Positions 1-32,273 of a DNA stretch of 35,148 nt are shown here, in pieces. Numbering within the stretch: position 1 is the first letter of the stretch; each line of letters begins with the position of its first letter. Both the position numbers and the translations under genes were made by a program. This DNA is from Oscillospiraceae bacterium. Lineage in GTDB: Bacteria > Bacillota > Clostridia > Oscillospirales > UBA929. The stretch spans positions 1-35,148 of the forward strand of contig WRAI01000024.1 of the NCBI GenBank assembly GCA_009780275.1. Reading direction: 5' to 3'. The notes beneath the pieces were generated by a model. The model saw nothing but the letters and a program-made list of their open reading frames with translations, had not been told where the DNA came from and ran no database searches.

Positions 1-3000
1 CCGAATTCACCGCCTTGCAGAATGCCCAGCTGTGCTAACGCCATGATTGACGCATAGTGCGGGTGGCCGCCAGGCACGTCGGGGAACGTCACATTTGCCA
101 GCTCGCCGTCAAATCCAGCGATAATCTCGGCCAATGTATTGCCCGTATACGCCATCATAAAGTTTGCCAGCAATTCAGCGATGTACCAGCGCGGCGCGCC
201 TTCGCGGTAGAGTACGCCAACTGGCAGATGTGCGCCGATGATACCGGCATCTTGCGCCCGTGTCACGTAAGGAACCGCCCAACTATTGGGGGTGTCACGG
301 TAAGGGTCAAACTTGTCGCATTCATCTTGCGGGCTGCCGCAAATGGGGCAGTATTCAACATCGGTTTCTCTTTCGCCTACGAACAAACGGTTAACCGTCA
401 ACACATCCTCTATCGGCGTTGCGCCAACAATGGCAAATGCTATGCCATGAACTGCCAATTCTCCATTGTCAATCAAATTCAGAACCGTTTGTGCATGGTC
501 GCGATATACTTCATGACTAACTGCATTTGCTTCAATCAACTCACGCAGCGTAAAGCCGCCGATATGTACGCCGGGGCCAAAATCAGTCGCCGTACCCGGC
601 TGTTCGCCGATGCTTGGTCCGACAATAAATGGTGTCATCGACAATTGCGGCAAGAAACTCACGCTTGCGCTGTTTCCGCCGGCTGTAACAGGCGCAAAAT
701 ACAGCGTCATGTTCGCTGTCGCACCGCTTGTCAGCGCGACATCAAAGTAAATCTTGTCTTCGTCAACATCCAACACGAGCGGGTTTTCCAACGAATAGAC
801 CACCGATGGCCAAGCAATGCCCGCGCTGCTCCGCCGCTGAATGGTGAGCACGCCGTCGTCAAGCTCCGTCACCGTTAAGCTCGTTGCCTGGTTGATAGGT
901 GCGGTGTGTCCCGAGGCGCTTGTCTTTTGATCAAAAATCCTGCTGTCAAGGTTGCTCGGCAGCAAGTTGTGCGCATAGTCGTCGGGCAGTATCGGCCAGC
1001 CGGGTTCAATCGGACGATCCGGATCTTGCCCGGTGTGAATGTCGGCCGAAACGTTGATAGCGACGGGAGTGCCCGGCAAGAGAAATACATTACCGCCAAC
1101 GCGTGCCCGACCGCGCGGAATAATCACCGCCGTGCCTTCCGCAACACCGCGAATGCCGCCAAATTCATTAACGGCAATAAACTCACCGCCACTGATAATG
1201 ACTGGCGCAAAGTCATACGTCACCGCCGTAACGTTATGGCGGTTGACCGTTTCGCCCGCAAGGTACACCAACTGACCTGTTTCAATGTTTTGCACATTCT
1301 CATTGGTACTAAACGCTACCGAAATATTGGACAAACGATGTGCGTGGCTGTTGGTCAGACCGGCAACACCGGCAACATAGTCGCGACTGACGCTGGGGAG
1401 GTCGCGATATGTCCACGGAATAAAAGGCAAACCGCGATGGCTCATGGCTTGTGTCAATGCACGTCCGCCGCCCATCATGCCGGCCTGATTGCTGTTGTTA
1501 ATCATATTCTGCGGCGCAAATTCACGAATTGCCGATTCGGCGTTGGTAAACGTGCCGCTCAATCCGCCTACTGTGCTTTCCGGCAGATATTCACGTATCA
1601 TCTCAATCTTGTTGGCATTGTGATTGAATGTGATAACGACAAATCTGTTGCGTAAATTAACACCGTACTCGTCATAGAAATCATCTAACATCTCGCTGAG
1701 TAATCTGATGATATTGGCAGTGCGCCCGGGGTTGGCTGACGTGCCCATACTCCAAGCATCCTTAATCTCGGCAAGGAAGATAACATCCTCAAACTCCGCC
1801 AATGCCTGCAAGTATTCCCACATGGTGGGGATTCGTACGTGCGTAAAGTCGGCCGGGTTCCACTCAACCGAGTGCGCGTAGTCGCCCGGCTGGTTAGGCA
1901 CAAGTTCGCGCACCTCTGCCAACGTCAACTCCCAAATGTTAGGGTTATTGGGACAGCAAGGCGTAGCACCACCGGCATTGGCATTTTCACAGCAAGGCCC
2001 AGTCAAAACGCCGATGCGGTTGTCATGGAAAATGACCAACTCTTCATCAAGCGTGATCATAATATCGAATTCCACAGCATTGGCACCGTCAAGAGCTGCT
2101 TGTATCGCGCCCTCTACGGTATTTTGCGGAATTTTTGAAGGCGAGCCGCGGTGCGCTGCATTAACCGGCGTACGTATCATTGTCGGCAGATTGCCGTCGA
2201 AAGATTCATACACTTCATAGAGTCGCGCTACGTTATCAGTGACAAATCCATTTGGTCCGTTAATGAGCTGCCTATACAACGCGTCGGTAGCAGCAGGCGC
2301 ATCCACCCAAACGCTAAACACACGCGCTTGCAGATAGAAGATATCCTCTTCCAACACCTCACCGGCATTGTATATGTATAGAATACGTCCCAAATTGGGG
2401 TTGGCATCAAGCACCCACGCATCCAACACATCTCTGTCAATGCCACCTGAACCGTCAACGGCTAATGCACCTTGCAAATGCCTAATCGCCAAGCGCAAAT
2501 GGCGTAATACAACAGGATCGCTGCTCATCAAAACACCGTCGCGAATATCGCTCTCTTCATAGAACTCAATAAACTCGGCGGCAATCGCCATGGTTTCAAT
2601 GCGGAACACGGGAATGACCCTGCCTCTCATAGCATTCAACACAAAGGCCAGCGAAGCACCGCCGGCATTGGCCACTGAAAGCCCGGGCGCAATATCCAAA
2701 ATCGCCGAAGCGGGGCGGCCGCTATCCATCGCGGCAAGCGTCAAGGGGTTCTGTGTCACATCTGCCACAATCGTCGGCGCGTTGACAATGCTGGTCACAG
2801 GTGTTTGCACGTTTTCGATAAACGGGAAAATCACCATGCCAATCGTCGGATCAGGGTACGTAAAGTTGCGTGTACCGTCAAACGGCGTTTCAGCGGCGTT
2901 CAAGCTGCCGTTGTTGTAAACCACGCGGATATTGGTCACATTAAACGTGTTTTGATCACCTTTAAAGCCCAACATACCACCCGTGTTGGCATGCCCAAAC

Positions 3001-3851
3001 GGCGTGAAGTGCCAATCGGTGTTGCGGATGTTGTTGAAATATCCGCGGATAGTGTTGCCGAACAAGTCAAGGCGATAGCGGTTGGTTTGGTTCAAAGCGT
3101 TGGTAACAGGCGCACCGCCAATAGGCGTAATTGCGCCGCTATCTACGCCTAGCCAAGTTGTACCATTATTGCCATTAATGCCGCGTGTTCCACCACCGGC
3201 ACCGCGTGTCAGCCAATGATAGTATGGCGCGATTGTGCCTGACGTCGCATTAAATGTCATGGCAACATAACGTGTGTTGTTAACCTCTTGTGTGACTGTC
3301 ATATCAGCACCGAATCGCACATTTGGGAACGCTTCTAAGAACACGGGCAGCATGACTGGCCGTGCAATTGACAGCACACCGGCAATTGAACCCGAGGTAA
3401 CTGTCAGCCTATTATTGGCCACCGTCCCGGCAATCGGGCCTTGCCCTTGCGTCCAGCTGGTAGGCAAATCATCCATGCCCGAAAAGTTGGTCTCAAAGAG
3501 CACAAATTCAGTTTCATCAGCATCTTTGACAACAAGCAGGATATCAAGACCGCCCACTTGCAGCCTATGTACGCCGCGCGTCAATCCGACGATTGTCAGG
3601 CCGCTGATAGTTGCAGACGAGCCATCAATAAATGCAGCATCTGCCAAGTCGGCCGCCGTTGCCGGCATGCCGTCGGCAAGAATGCCCAAACCAAGCAGCG
3701 TTGGGGCTGCAGCCGGACTGTCAACTAAAACATATCCTGTCGGATGGGTCAGCGTCGGCGTTGCCGTCGCTACCGGCACAATGCCCATCAGGCCAATCAG
3801 CATTACCAGGGCCAAAACCAGGGAAATTGCGCGTTTGCTTGTACGTTTCAT
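1..3851 (-). CDS. Secreted SLH-anchored glycerophosphodiester phosphodiesterase (3' end cut by window)
   Basis: The frame is open from an ATG at 3851 to the window edge (about 1283 codons, no stop). An AGGAGG site lies 11 bases upstream. The protein opens with a typical signal peptide (MKRTSKRAISLVLALVML). A lectin-like beta region follows at about residues 80-330. Residues about 345-555 look like a glycerophosphodiesterase (GDPD) barrel lacking the catalytic signature. A complete GDPD barrel follows: HRG with His567, VEFD with Glu594 and Asp596, and FHD with His609. Known GDPDs hydrolyse glycerophosphodiesters to glycerol-3-phosphate and an alcohol; teichoic acid or lipid head groups are plausible outside a Gram-positive cell. 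A CCE...CC cysteine insert sits just after His609. Further beta-rich regions lead to a CxxC...C motif near residue 1170. From about 1190 the sequence resembles SLH modules (TFPDVPGGHPHYASI), which bind cell-wall polymer. It has its own promoter and is separated from ctpA by a terminator. Confidence 0.88.
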   Translation of the reverse strand, partial: MKRTSKRAISLVLALVMLIGLMGIVPVATATPTLTHPTGYVLVDSPAAAPTLLGLGILADGMPATAADLADAAFIDGSSATISGLTIVGLTRGVHRLQVGGLDILLVVKDADETEFVLFETNFSGMDDLPTSWTQGQGPIAGTVANNRLTVTSGSIAGVLSIARPVMLPVFLEAFPNVRFGADMTVTQEVNNTRYVAMTFNATSGTIAPYYHWLTRGAGGGTRGINGNNGTTWLGVDSGAITPIGGAPVTNALNQTNRYRLDLFGNTIRGYFNNIRNTDWHFTPFGHANTGGMLGFKGDQNTFNVTNIRVVYNNGSLNAAETPFDGTRNFTYPDPTIGMVIFPFIENVQTPVTSIVNAPTIVADVTQNPLTLAAMDSGRPASAILDIAPGLSVANAGGASLAFVLNAMRGRVIPVFRIETMAIAAEFIEFYEESDIRDGVLMSSDPVVLRHLRLAIRHLQGALAVDGSGGIDRDVLDAWVLDANPNLGRILYIYNAGEVLEEDIFYLQARVFSVWVDAPAATDALYRQLINGPNGFVTDNVARLYEVYESFDGNLPTMIRTPVNAAHRGSPSKIPQNTVEGAIQAALDGANAVEFDIMITLDEELVIFHDNRIGVLTGPCCENANAGGATPCCPNNPNIWELTLAEVRELVPNQPGDYAHSVEWNPADFTHVRIPTMWEYLQALAEFEDVIFLAEIKDAWSMGTSANPGRTANIIRLLSEMLDDFYDEYGVNLRNRFVVITFNHNANKIEMIREYLPESTVGGLSGTFTNAESAIREFAPQNMINNSNQAGMMGGGRALTQAMSHRGLPFIPWTYRDLPSVSRDYVAGVAGLTNSHAHRLSNISVAFSTNENVQNIETGQLVYLAGETVNRHNVTAVTYDFAPVIISGGEFIAVNEFGGIRGVAEGTAVIIPRGRARVGGNVFLLPGTPVAINVSADIHTGQDPDRPIEPGWPILPDDYAHNLLPSNLDSRIFDQKTSASGHTAPINQATSLTVTELDDGVLTIQRRSSAGIAWPSVVYSLENPLVLDVDEDKIYFDVALTSGATANMTLYFAPVTAGGNSASVSFLPQLSMTPFIVGPSIGEQPGTATDFGPGVHIGGFTLRELIEANAVSHEVYRDHAQTVLNLIDNGELAVHGIAFAIVGATPIEDVLTVNRLFVGERETDVEYCPICGSPQDECDKFDPYRDTPNSWAVPYVTRAQDAGIIGAHLPVGVLYREGAPRWYIAELLANFMMAYTGNTLAEIIAGFDGELANVTFPDVPGGHPHYASIMALAQLGILQGGEF

Positions 3852-3895
3852 AGCTCTATTTTCCTCCTATTATTTGAGCAATTTTAATTGGCATC

Positions 3896-3925
3896 ATTGT
3901 ATCATGCCTGGCGACAAGTTGTCAA
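3896..3925 (-). promoter_or_regulatory. Sigma-A-type promoter of the SLH phosphodiesterase gene
   Basis: On the minus strand TTGACA (3925-3920) and TACAAT (3901-3896) are separated by 18 bases, about 45 bases upstream of the start codon. An 11-base inverted repeat, GACAA-G-TTGTC at 3912-3922, overlaps the -35 box and could be an operator. Confidence 0.65.
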
Positions 3926-3956: not shown

Positions 3957-4016
3957 GAAAAAGCACCCTTAATCGATGCAGAGGGCGGGTTTTTATACCC
4001 GCCCATGAGCTTTTTT
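3957..4016 (-). terminator. Terminator after ctpA (A/T-flanked, possibly bidirectional)
   Basis: The inverted repeat GGGCGGGT (3983-3990) / ACCCGCCC (3997-4004) has a six-base loop. It lies within an outer repeat AAAAAGC / GCTTTTT whose T-rich tails face both ways. It sits about 95 bases past the ctpA stop and would end the fts operon. The remaining bases between ctpA and the promoter at 3925 show no gene. Confidence 0.7.
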
Positions 4017-4097
4017 ATATGTATGAGCCGTTTGACAGATAATTGGTGACACACCATCCCTACTAACGCAATTAAATCAGCGTATGCCATGTCTTGT

Positions 4098-29126: not shown

Positions 29127-29234
29127 GTTATTAATACCCCTGTTTTTTTATGCTCTCGTTCGAATACTAAAAATAACTAAGGATAACATGAGGCTGGCAA
29201 TTTCAGAAGTGCATCGCTAAAGGAAGTGTTAATT

Positions 29235-32200
29235 ATGAGACAAGCGTTTATAAAAGGGATATCGTGCATTACCATTGTCGTAATGTTGATTACTCTGAAT
29301 TTTAATTTTTTAAGTACAAACGCGGCGAGCGGAAGTGCAAGCCTGCATATGAATGGCGGCACCGGATATAATTTTGATTTTGTCTTTCTTTTGCAAAACG
29401 GCACGGAGCAGATAATCAGGATACCTGGAGGCGGAACCGTGCCGGCAATCTATCCCAACGGAACAACCCTTCAATTAGGGGATCAGCTTCTTTATGTCCT
29501 AATCTCCGACTCAAACGGAAATCCGATGGGCACGATTCTGTCCGACGCAATAGGAAGCAGAAGCAGTAAAAATGCCACGCTCCAAGCCGATGGTTCAATG
29601 GGTTCAGGCGGTGTCATGGTCGGAAATTCCGGCACAATCAATTTTTGGTTTAACGGATTTTTGAGCGGGCAAGCAAGTACGTCATATATAATGGCAAATA
29701 AAATATGGCTGAACGCTGACGGCTCAACGGATACAAATCCGCCGTCCCAATTTAATTTTGTATTGAACGGCACAACAAATTCGGGGAATACGGTTGATAA
29801 TATTTCGATACTCCCCGGCGTGCAGGTTTTGGTTCAGGACGGAACATATACAATAACCGAGCCGGACATCCCCGGCTATCGGCTGGTAAGCATTACCTCA
29901 AACACCATGCAGACAAGCGTTTCGGACAAATCAGCTTCCGCAGTAACGGCAAGCGGAAATTATTCTGCGACATTTACAAATCAAGATATACCCAATAATG
30001 CACTGATCACCCTTTACGGACAAAAAATAAGCAACGGTGCCCCGCTAACGCCCGGCCTTTTTAACTTCACAGTCAAAGATGAAAATGGGGTGGTGGTTGC
30101 CACGGCGACAAACACGGCTGACAGCTATGTTCCATCAACCAACACGGGATACGGATCTATCATTTTTACGCCGATTGAATATACCGCAGCGGACGTGGGC
30201 CAGCATACATATACTGTTGAGGAAGTTGGAACAAACGACAGCTTATGGATTTACAGCGTTGTCCAGTATACGGTATGGGTAAATGTCTCCTTAAATGGTA
30301 ATCAAGTTACCGCAACCACTACATATCCCGCAGGAGGCATCATCTTCCGCAATTTTTACACAGCCACAGGCTCATTTATTCCCGAAGGGACCAAAACAGT
30401 TGCCAATGGCATATTGCAAACAGGTCAATTTACGTTTGCTATCGAGAATGAAAACGGCACGGTGGTCTCCACAGGCACAAACGCGGCAGACGGTACCATT
30501 ATGTTTTCTCCTATCAATTATAACAGCACCGGTATAGGGCAGCATACATACACCGTTTATGAAACCAGTCCTTATGGTGTGAACGGCTGGATTACCTCGG
30601 GTGCAAGATTTACGATAAATGTGGATGTAGAGGACGACCCAAACAATCCCGGAACATTGATCGTTACACCGACCTATCCAAGCCCGATTGTATTTCAAAA
30701 TGTATATTTAGCACGAGGAACACTGTCTTTATCTGCGCAGAAAATAATCAACGGCGGAACTATGTCTGCAGGGCAGTTCCAGTTTGCCGTTTTGGATGAA
30801 TTTGGAACGACGATTGCCACAGGCTCCAACAACGCAAACGGAACCATCGTATTTAGCACTATACGATATATGTCGGGTGATGAGGGCGTTCATATATATA
30901 CGATTGTAGAGACGACGCCGTCGAGCGGAGGCTGGACGACGAGCAATGTTTCTTATACAGTTCCGGTGATTGTTACCGATAACGGTAACGGAACAATGAC
31001 GGTAAGGTCATTTGAGTTAAATACAAGCGACTTTTTATTTATAAACACATACAATGCGGTCGGGGATATTGTATTGAATGCAAATAAAATTATCAGAGGC
31101 GGAACGCTCTCGGACGGCCAGTTCGATTTTGCCGTCCTGGATGAAAATGATGTAACGGTCGCTATCGGGACAAATGATGCAGCCGGCAATATTGAATTTA
31201 CACCGATCAACTATACGCTTAATGACGTCGGAACGCATAACTACACGGTTTTTGAGACAAGTCTGAGCGGAAGCGGCTGGACAACAAGTAACGTCGTTTT
31301 TAATGTGACGGTGGAGGTTACGGATAATGGAGACGGCACGATCACCGCAACTCCATTTTACCCCGACGGAGGCATTGTGTTCGTCAATATCTATGAATCC
31401 TCCGGCTCAATCGCTTTGACTGCCAATAAAACAACGGTCAACAAATCCTTGACCGCCGGTCAGTTCAGTTTTGCCGTCCTGGATGAAAATGATATCGTTG
31501 TGGCCACAGGCACCAATGATGCGACCGGCTACATTCTGTTTTCGGCAATCCCCTATACCGTTGATGATGTGGGCGTGCATAACTATACAATCATTGAAAC
31601 AAGCCTATCCGAGAACGGCTGGACGGTCGACTCTACGCGGTTTAATGTAACCGTGACAGTTACCGAAAACGCCGACGGCACGATTACGGCAACGCCGGAT
31701 TATTCCGACGAGGATATAGAATTCGTAAATACATATGCCACCGCCATGGATTTTACTTTTAAAAAAACCGATAGCTATGGAAACTCACTTGTCGGGGTTA
31801 CGTTTGAGCTATACACCTGCACAGAAGCTGGCACCGCGGGCCATATACACTCAGAGCTTGCCACAAACGACCCCAGTTGCTGCTGGGATGTCAACAATCC
31901 ACTACTCATGGTAACGAGTGATTCGAATGGAATCGTTATGTTTAATGAGCTTGCAACGGGAGATTATATGCTGGCGGAAACGCAGACACTGACTGGCTTA
32001 CAATTGCCCTTTGGACAATGGCTGATTGGTGTGGATGTAGACGCATGGGAGATAACCATTACCGCGCGGGGAGACGATCTGCCGCCCGCATTTAATATTG
32101 AAGCCGACGGCAGTTACGCCCTTACAAACTACCCCATATTGGCTCTACCGTCTGTCGGAAGCTTGGAAAGCATATGGCATATTCTGCTTGGCACTGCATT

Positions 32201-32273
32201 AGTCATATTTGCGGGATTCCTCTGGTTAGAATCATACCGCAAAAAACGAAAATATTTTCAGGATAATCTATAA
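29235..32273 (+). CDS. Sortase-anchored ancillary pilin/adhesin with five isopeptide repeats
   Basis: 1012 aa from ATG at 29235 (AGGAAG eight bases upstream; an in-frame GTG at 29226 overlaps that site). A signal peptide (1-33) is followed by a unique N-terminal region and a Cna-B-like domain (about 150-254). Five tandem Spy0128-type pilin domains start near residues 256, 377, 494, 609 and 722. Each has a Lys near its start (such as LNANKI), a central ETS/EEV Glu and a closing FxNxY Asn, the set that forms Lys-Asn isopeptide bonds. A last SpaA-like domain (about 837-965) has a cysteine insert (YTCTEAG ... SCCW). The C-terminus has LPSVG (971-975), a hydrophobic segment and a basic tail. Its size and position suggest a tip or ancillary pilin. 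The ligand is unknown. Confidence 0.9.
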   Translation: MRQAFIKGISCITIVVMLITLNFNFLSTNAASGSASLHMNGGTGYNFDFVFLLQNGTEQIIRIPGGGTVPAIYPNGTTLQLGDQLLYVLISDSNGNPMGTILSDAIGSRSSKNATLQADGSMGSGGVMVGNSGTINFWFNGFLSGQASTSYIMANKIWLNADGSTDTNPPSQFNFVLNGTTNSGNTVDNISILPGVQVLVQDGTYTITEPDIPGYRLVSITSNTMQTSVSDKSASAVTASGNYSATFTNQDIPNNALITLYGQKISNGAPLTPGLFNFTVKDENGVVVATATNTADSYVPSTNTGYGSIIFTPIEYTAADVGQHTYTVEEVGTNDSLWIYSVVQYTVWVNVSLNGNQVTATTTYPAGGIIFRNFYTATGSFIPEGTKTVANGILQTGQFTFAIENENGTVVSTGTNAADGTIMFSPINYNSTGIGQHTYTVYETSPYGVNGWITSGARFTINVDVEDDPNNPGTLIVTPTYPSPIVFQNVYLARGTLSLSAQKIINGGTMSAGQFQFAVLDEFGTTIATGSNNANGTIVFSTIRYMSGDEGVHIYTIVETTPSSGGWTTSNVSYTVPVIVTDNGNGTMTVRSFELNTSDFLFINTYNAVGDIVLNANKIIRGGTLSDGQFDFAVLDENDVTVAIGTNDAAGNIEFTPINYTLNDVGTHNYTVFETSLSGSGWTTSNVVFNVTVEVTDNGDGTITATPFYPDGGIVFVNIYESSGSIALTANKTTVNKSLTAGQFSFAVLDENDIVVATGTNDATGYILFSAIPYTVDDVGVHNYTIIETSLSENGWTVDSTRFNVTVTVTENADGTITATPDYSDEDIEFVNTYATAMDFTFKKTDSYGNSLVGVTFELYTCTEAGTAGHIHSELATNDPSCCWDVNNPLLMVTSDSNGIVMFNELATGDYMLAETQTLTGLQLPFGQWLIGVDVDAWEITITARGDDLPPAFNIEADGSYALTNYPILALPSVGSLESIWHILLGTALVIFAGFLWLESYRKKRKYFQDNL
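30001..31737 (+). repeat. Five tandem isopeptide-domain repeats within the adhesin gene
   Basis: Units of about 340-360 bases start near 30001, 30367, 30718, 31063 and 31402. Repeats 3 to 5 are closest, sharing GQF.FAVLDE and SGWTTSN-like motifs. They are diverged at DNA level, so they are older duplications rather than a fresh expansion. Confidence 0.85.

Follow-up and report, generated by a model that had tools for sequence, protein, structure and literature searches.

Enzymes of the GDPD family bear their ligands at the ends of barrel strands 1–3 and draw their catalytic residues from the HRG, ExD, HD and ExK motifs. GlpQ consists of a single such barrel without CBM or SLH parts, and the plant SHV3/GDPDL proteins, which are GDPD-like and located at the cell surface, have two GDPD domains in tandem. 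Bacterial proteins held at the surface by SLH repeats, for their part, belong with a pyruvylated-polymer system. As described in PMC7086022, GlpQ strips wall teichoic acid, acting as an exolytic sn-glycerol-3-phosphodiesterase, and PMC6726743 describes GPI anchoring and cell-wall roles for the SHV3/GDPDL proteins, with glycerophosphodiester hydrolysis for one member. Here we present a clostridial surface protein in which a degenerate GDPD barrel stands directly ahead of an intact one. Among the papers listed in searches of the open-licence PMC literature, none concerned this dead-plus-live architecture, one search having a B. cereus transcriptome paper as its sole match, and, as far as searched, the architecture is a variant without a name within an otherwise known enzyme type.

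The gene lies on the reverse strand at positions 3–3851 of the window, by which we mean the whole 35,148-nucleotide stretch that was analyzed, and codes for 1283 residues, its C-terminus being cut by the contig end at which the window begins. From the N-terminus onward, the parts, all on the reverse strand, are: a signal peptide recognized by eye, a CBM66-like beta-sandwich (residues 121–315; positions 2907–3491), the degenerate GDPD-fold barrel (residues approximately 345–556; positions 2184–2819), the intact GDPD barrel (residues 563–835; positions 1347–2165), a conserved stretch that appears Ig-like by eye (residues approximately 845–940; positions 1032–1319) and the first part of an SLH domain (residues 1255–1281; positions 9–89). 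The stretch behind the live barrel was delimited by an alignment with a relative from another genus that extends to residue 940, and a cysteine cluster, CPICGSPQDEC (residues 1168–1178; positions 318–350, reverse strand), precedes the SLH domain. On the same strand, an AGGAGG ribosome-binding site (positions 3863–3868) stands before the ATG at 3851, and ahead of it lies the gene's own promoter-like site, TTGACA-18-TACAAT (positions 3896–3925), which matches 11 of 12 consensus letters and is a match to consensus only. Between this gene and the upstream S41-protease gene, a GGGCGGG/CCCGCCC hairpin is visible by eye (positions 3983–4004, reverse strand); a terminator scan near the gene start returned in its place two weaker terminator-like sites at 4056–4044 and 3979–3963. 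Because of its own promoter-like site and the hairpin before it, the gene is probably separate from the ftsE-ftsX-M23-S41 operon, and we rejected its membership therein.

Family models pass over the first barrel. In the window protein Pfam detects GDPD (PF03009) at residues 567–831, with 77.7 bits against a gathering score of 23.6, and the cut SLH domain, and returns no significant family on residues 330–560; the NCBIfam matches lie only from residue 561 onward, and in a phmmer search of the PDB all the best stretches begin at residue 555 or later. The AF2 model of residues 330–562, made from a 17-row alignment (pLDDT 81.9, pTM 0.81), is a complete (beta/alpha)8 barrel in which eight strands (residues 360–364, 382–388, 413–417, 440–443, 460–466, 490–494, 513–517 and 535–538) and eight helices strictly alternate; the AF2 alignments drew on 16 of 19 two-barrel loci, leaving out L055 as truncated, L063 as mis-placed, and also L062. 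A reading of the DNA made from its letters alone (hereinafter the sequence-only reading) had proposed a TIM barrel at residues 345–555, which the prediction upholds, and had correctly located VWVDAP (514–519) and NGFVTDN (534–540). Foldseek against the PDB places GDPDs best for the model (1v8e, E 7e-7, TM about 0.6), and in a second structure comparison GDPD or GDPD-like chains take ranks 1–28, with Z of 14.7–17.8, mostly 16–17.8, over 177–197 aligned residues, where "GDPD-like" is our own label for phage spike domains, LyPls-PLD and 7ww4/7wwc. On the profile level, hhalign joins the first barrel to a set of plain GDPDs (26 of the 28 loci L067–L094) with a probability of 98.8% and a score of 85.7, as against a maximum score of 12.1 and a maximum probability of 1.1 in column-shuffled controls, of which 29 of 30 gave scores; when first-barrel and GDPD alignments were combined in three further ways, the probabilities were 98.0–98.6. 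Because the structure ranking is led by GDPDs and the profile score lies far above the shuffles, the first barrel is a degenerate GDPD barrel, more than merely a TIM barrel: it has both the GDPD-type (beta/alpha)8 fold and sequence homology to GDPDs, without a PF03009 match.

The two barrels part company at the active site. The second carries H567, R568, E594, D596, H609, E695 and K697. With the barrels matched through strand order and their profile alignment, 38 of 39 two-barrel proteins keep all seven residues in the second barrel, and the first shows no conservation of them. The sole exception, L042, has AAQDKDR in their place and seems dead in both barrels. The 39-row set derives from 45 distinct ORFs, seven of which were dropped (two copies of the window protein, three plain GDPDs, a stand-alone barrel and one truncated ORF); five of the 39 are cut at the locus edge, and ten come from loci fetched with patterns around the live-site motif, which favors intact sites, the count without them being 28 of 29. 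Among five two-barrel proteins added later, three keep the catalytic set and two, from the genus g202, have HRDDHEG. In the first barrel the ends of strands 1–3 vary widely among the 39 proteins. HRG or HCG occurs somewhere in the dead barrel of one of them, and in no alignment column does His appear more than 7 times among the 39 sequences, which led us to reject a displaced catalytic set. Fold, profile homology and catalytic-residue alignment thus bear out the sequence-only reading of a dead barrel lacking the HRG and HD signatures ahead of an intact one, in which it had pointed to His567, Glu594, Asp596 and His609.

The two-barrel architecture is sparse but wide. This genome has two places matching PF03009, both of them two-barrel genes. 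Across the taxonomic order to which the window belongs, the first barrel is present in 22 of 295 genomes, and 24 of its 25 occurrences precede a GDPD-fold barrel (one of these being L042), the remaining one being a stand-alone protein. Matches spanning both barrels (model start at or below 30, end at or above 484) occur in at least 19 of 391 genomes of a class-level sample, and two-barrel proteins in 3 of 398 genomes of a phylum-level sample at E 1e-65, our own genome being included in both. Named holders comprise Eubacteriales and Clostridia MAGs, Clostridium sp. MSJ-8, Paenibacillus cellulosilyticus, P. alkalitolerans and Salipaludibacillus neizhouensis, and relatives are also found on two Acinetobacter plasmids, one of which was examined; a contig search with the window protein as the single query found no relative. 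Given that two-barrel proteins are rare and single GDPD barrels common in the class-level sample, GDPD activity generally needs no first barrel.

The predicted model of the front sandwich aligns with the CBM66 structure 4azz at Z 17.8 (rmsd 2.5, 162 residues), a narrow lead of about one Z over other sandwiches, the next being galactocerebrosidase at Z 16.7, in a region of low to middling pLDDT. PF06439 matches the front domain in 17 of the 39 two-barrel relatives, though not in the window protein itself, where Pfam gave no match at E up to 1. The anchors differ among the 39 relatives: SLH occurs in two and dockerin in 14, and others show, by eye, C-terminal TM or lipobox anchors. The lectin-like front proposed by the sequence-only reading is supported as a CBM66-like fold, and its SLH anchor remains a putative one, seen as a single, cut SLH domain where the contig ends; the SLH region recurs at 14 other loci of the same genome, which also encodes one PF04230 protein and has no Omp85 match.

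What the first barrel does is best approached through its pattern of conservation. The dead barrel has diverged the faster of the two: its mean identity is 23.9% versus 36.6% for the live one, and it is the lower in 728 of 741 pairs (L042 included). Measured over 38 sequences with L042 excluded, conservation in the dead barrel is 1.56 bits at the mouth, 1.91 at the bottom and 2.32 in the middle, as against 2.85, 2.26 and 2.57 bits, respectively, in the live barrel; strand by strand, the mouth falls below the bottom in six of eight dead-barrel strands and above it in seven of eight live-barrel strands. The same holds in four subclusters of overlapping membership, in each of which the dead mouth is the lowest zone and the live mouth exceeds the live bottom, with the live core slightly above the mouth in one of them. 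By strand order, the best-conserved positions of the dead barrel (P414, D438, R453, position 460, W515 and G532) map to the core or to the region beneath the strands. Since the dead mouth is the least conserved zone, where a shared ligand pocket predicts the reverse, a structural and positioning role is favored, the structural one being among the two that the sequence-only reading had offered, and substrate binding by the dead barrel, the other, gained no positive evidence.

We lean toward a surface-anchored, glycerophosphodiesterase-type enzyme that works on a phosphodiester-bearing wall polymer with its second barrel, the first being structural. In such a protein, the first barrel, a GDPD barrel that has lost its catalytic residues, would have been kept as a rigid module for structure and positioning, set between the enzyme and the sugar-binding-like sandwich; the second would cleave phosphodiester bonds, either in an extracellular glycopolymer or in glycerophosphodiester fragments. 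Against this account count the confidence values of the full-length model as regards contacts between the barrels (pLDDT 72.9, pTM 0.66), the rarity of two-barrel proteins beside common single GDPD barrels, a stand-alone dead barrel in the same genome and the 82% conserved S443 at the mouth end of strand 4.

An unlikely, if conceivable, alternative is that the former active site persists as a subsite that grips the phosphodiester polymer and passes it on to its live neighbor. The dead barrel adjoins both the live barrel and the CBM-like sandwich, is homologous to GDPDs and retains at the mouth end of its strand 4 a residue, S443, that is 82% conserved. These points have to be set against a mouth that is on average the least conserved zone, both in the 38 sequences and in the four subclusters, an observation that concerns the mouth and not the outer surface.

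A paralogous locus of the same genome brings in a further possibility. There, a two-barrel gene and a gene for a stand-alone dead barrel (328 residues from its ATG, with a C-terminal TM by eye) overlap by 8 nt, and genes for MoxR, DUF58 and a TgpA-like transglutaminase follow, each overlapping the next. A dead barrel that stands alone is more readily reconciled with a function of its own than with mere spacing, and the overlap and the genes that follow would agree with a pseudoenzyme that regulates the live enzyme or its partners and, in the paralogue operon, also occurs by itself as a protein anchored in the membrane. However, the stand-alone copy was seen in one genome only and is absent from six other loci of five genomes, and we consider such regulation decidedly improbable. 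With the same strong reservation, one might picture the dead barrel as an independent pseudoenzyme module, fused before surface GDPDs and also produced as a translationally coupled membrane protein with the MoxR-DUF58-transglutaminase set, which would control or chaperone a live phosphodiesterase on phosphodiester-decorated wall polymers. As a general partner of two-barrel genes the MoxR operon was rejected, not being among their checked neighbors in four other genomes. Finally, an unrelated TIM barrel with a different catalytic site of its own is highly improbable and was rejected on the structure ranking and profile comparison: although N-acetylneuraminate lyase stands at rank 6 of the Foldseek list (E 1.7e-5) and pyruvate kinase follows the 28 GDPD and GDPD-like chains at Z 14.2, level with the lowest-ranked GDPD (3mz2, Z 14.7) and 3.6 below the best, the mouth has no conserved residue set, and a live-barrel HMM matches the first barrels of four relatives at 15–24 bits and, at 12 and 8 bits, those of a further two.

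Returning to the structural first barrel and catalytic second barrel, the gene content of the genome offers a candidate substrate. Phosphodiester-decorated wall glycopolymers are plausible in this role because one cluster of this genome combines a LytR-CpsA-Psr (LCP) protein, Bac_transf, LicD, a cytidylyltransferase-like protein, a glycosyltransferase and a flippase. The cytidylyltransferase-like protein matches TIGR01518 with 99.1 bits, below the cut-off of 165.4; the genome further has a single, partial match to CDP-glycerol glycerophosphotransferase (38 bits) and one protein of the sulfatase family (PF00884). In the genus g202, a two-barrel protein, with its live residues altered to HRDDHEG, is encoded within a similar cluster, flanked by LicD on one side and on the other by a cytidylyltransferase-like gene, whose product scores 88.8 bits with a heptose adenylyltransferase model and 87.5 bits with the glycerol-3-phosphate cytidylyltransferase model. 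For the teichoic-type polymers suggested by the sequence-only reading, these two gene contexts give indirect support. A sure identification of these genes as glycerol-3-phosphate cytidylyltransferases was rejected, all matches being below the TIGR01518 cut-off; it is further undercut by the like score of the heptose adenylyltransferase model in g202 and by a control in which TIGR01518 matched in 12 of 14 genomes, two of them above the cut-off.

These results define a recurrent and here nameless domain, a dead GDPD barrel missed by Pfam and NCBIfam in the window protein, that is reused by surface phosphodiesterases with differing anchors. Since a single chain bears the same fold twice, once dead and once live, the two-barrel proteins offer a natural pair in which to study the role of an enzyme domain that has been retired, and they point to phosphodiester chemistry on the glycopolymers of little-studied Clostridia-like bacteria.

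Set beside the known systems, the second barrel is alike to the GDPD/GlpQ family (PF03009; B. subtilis GlpQ 5t9b and T. tengcongensis 2pz0) in its family match and full catalytic set, with a fold match to 2pz0 at Z 27.6; the first barrel shares the fold of this family at Z 17.8 and differs from it in having neither the catalytic positions nor any Pfam match. With the plant SHV3/GDPDL proteins the window protein has in common a surface location and tandem GDPD domains, a likeness in described architecture, whereas those proteins are of plants and GPI-anchored. The front sandwich has the fold of CBM66 (B. subtilis, 4azz/4b1m) and PF06439 at the above-mentioned Z, at only 13–14% identity to CBM66. 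Lastly, the barrel of 7ww4/7wwc, deposited as a multidomain beta-1,3(4)-glucanase, matches the dead-barrel model at Z 16.3 and the live-barrel region of the full model at Z 24.2–24.6, and it is set inside a multidomain carbohydrate-active protein.

Certain proteins pairing a catalytically dead GDPD-fold barrel with a following GDPD barrel are altered in the latter: In the protein of locus L042 (G056:C15), the second barrel also appears dead, with AAQDKDR at the seven catalytic positions, and dockerin-like repeats are recognizable by eye at the C-terminal end. In genus g202 (loci L105 and L107), the live site is changed to HRDDHEG, no signal sequence is evident in the two-barrel protein, and its gene is enclosed by a cluster of LicD, cytidylyltransferase-like, flippase and glycosyltransferase genes. 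The window protein, which bears a signal sequence, displays two cysteine motifs, namely a CC...CC insertion inside the live barrel (window 1953-1994, aa 620-633) and a CPICG...C cluster ahead of the SLH region (window 318-350, aa 1168-1178).

A 22 kb Acinetobacter indicus plasmid, pB18-5 (L046), also encodes a two-barrel GDPD, with a lipobox discernible by eye; its neighbors are IS4, ISNCY and a RelE/ParE toxin gene, which suggests transfer into a Gram-negative host.

The genome bearing the window features a further run of overlapping genes (contig C16, L102:3994-11547) coding for a two-barrel GDPD, a stand-alone dead barrel with a TM segment read by eye, MoxR, DUF58 and a TgpA-like transglutaminase. 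Elsewhere in this genome, a single ORF (contig C9, L110:3140-5224) is an unusual fusion, in which a match to YidC (60KD_IMP) is joined to a partial match to the CDP-glycerol glycerophosphotransferase family. Finally, the window codes for a 1015-aa protein (29226-32273) with FctA (Spy0128-like isopeptide) domains in five stretches plus SpaA, whose domain composition predicts a pilin- or adhesin-like protein.
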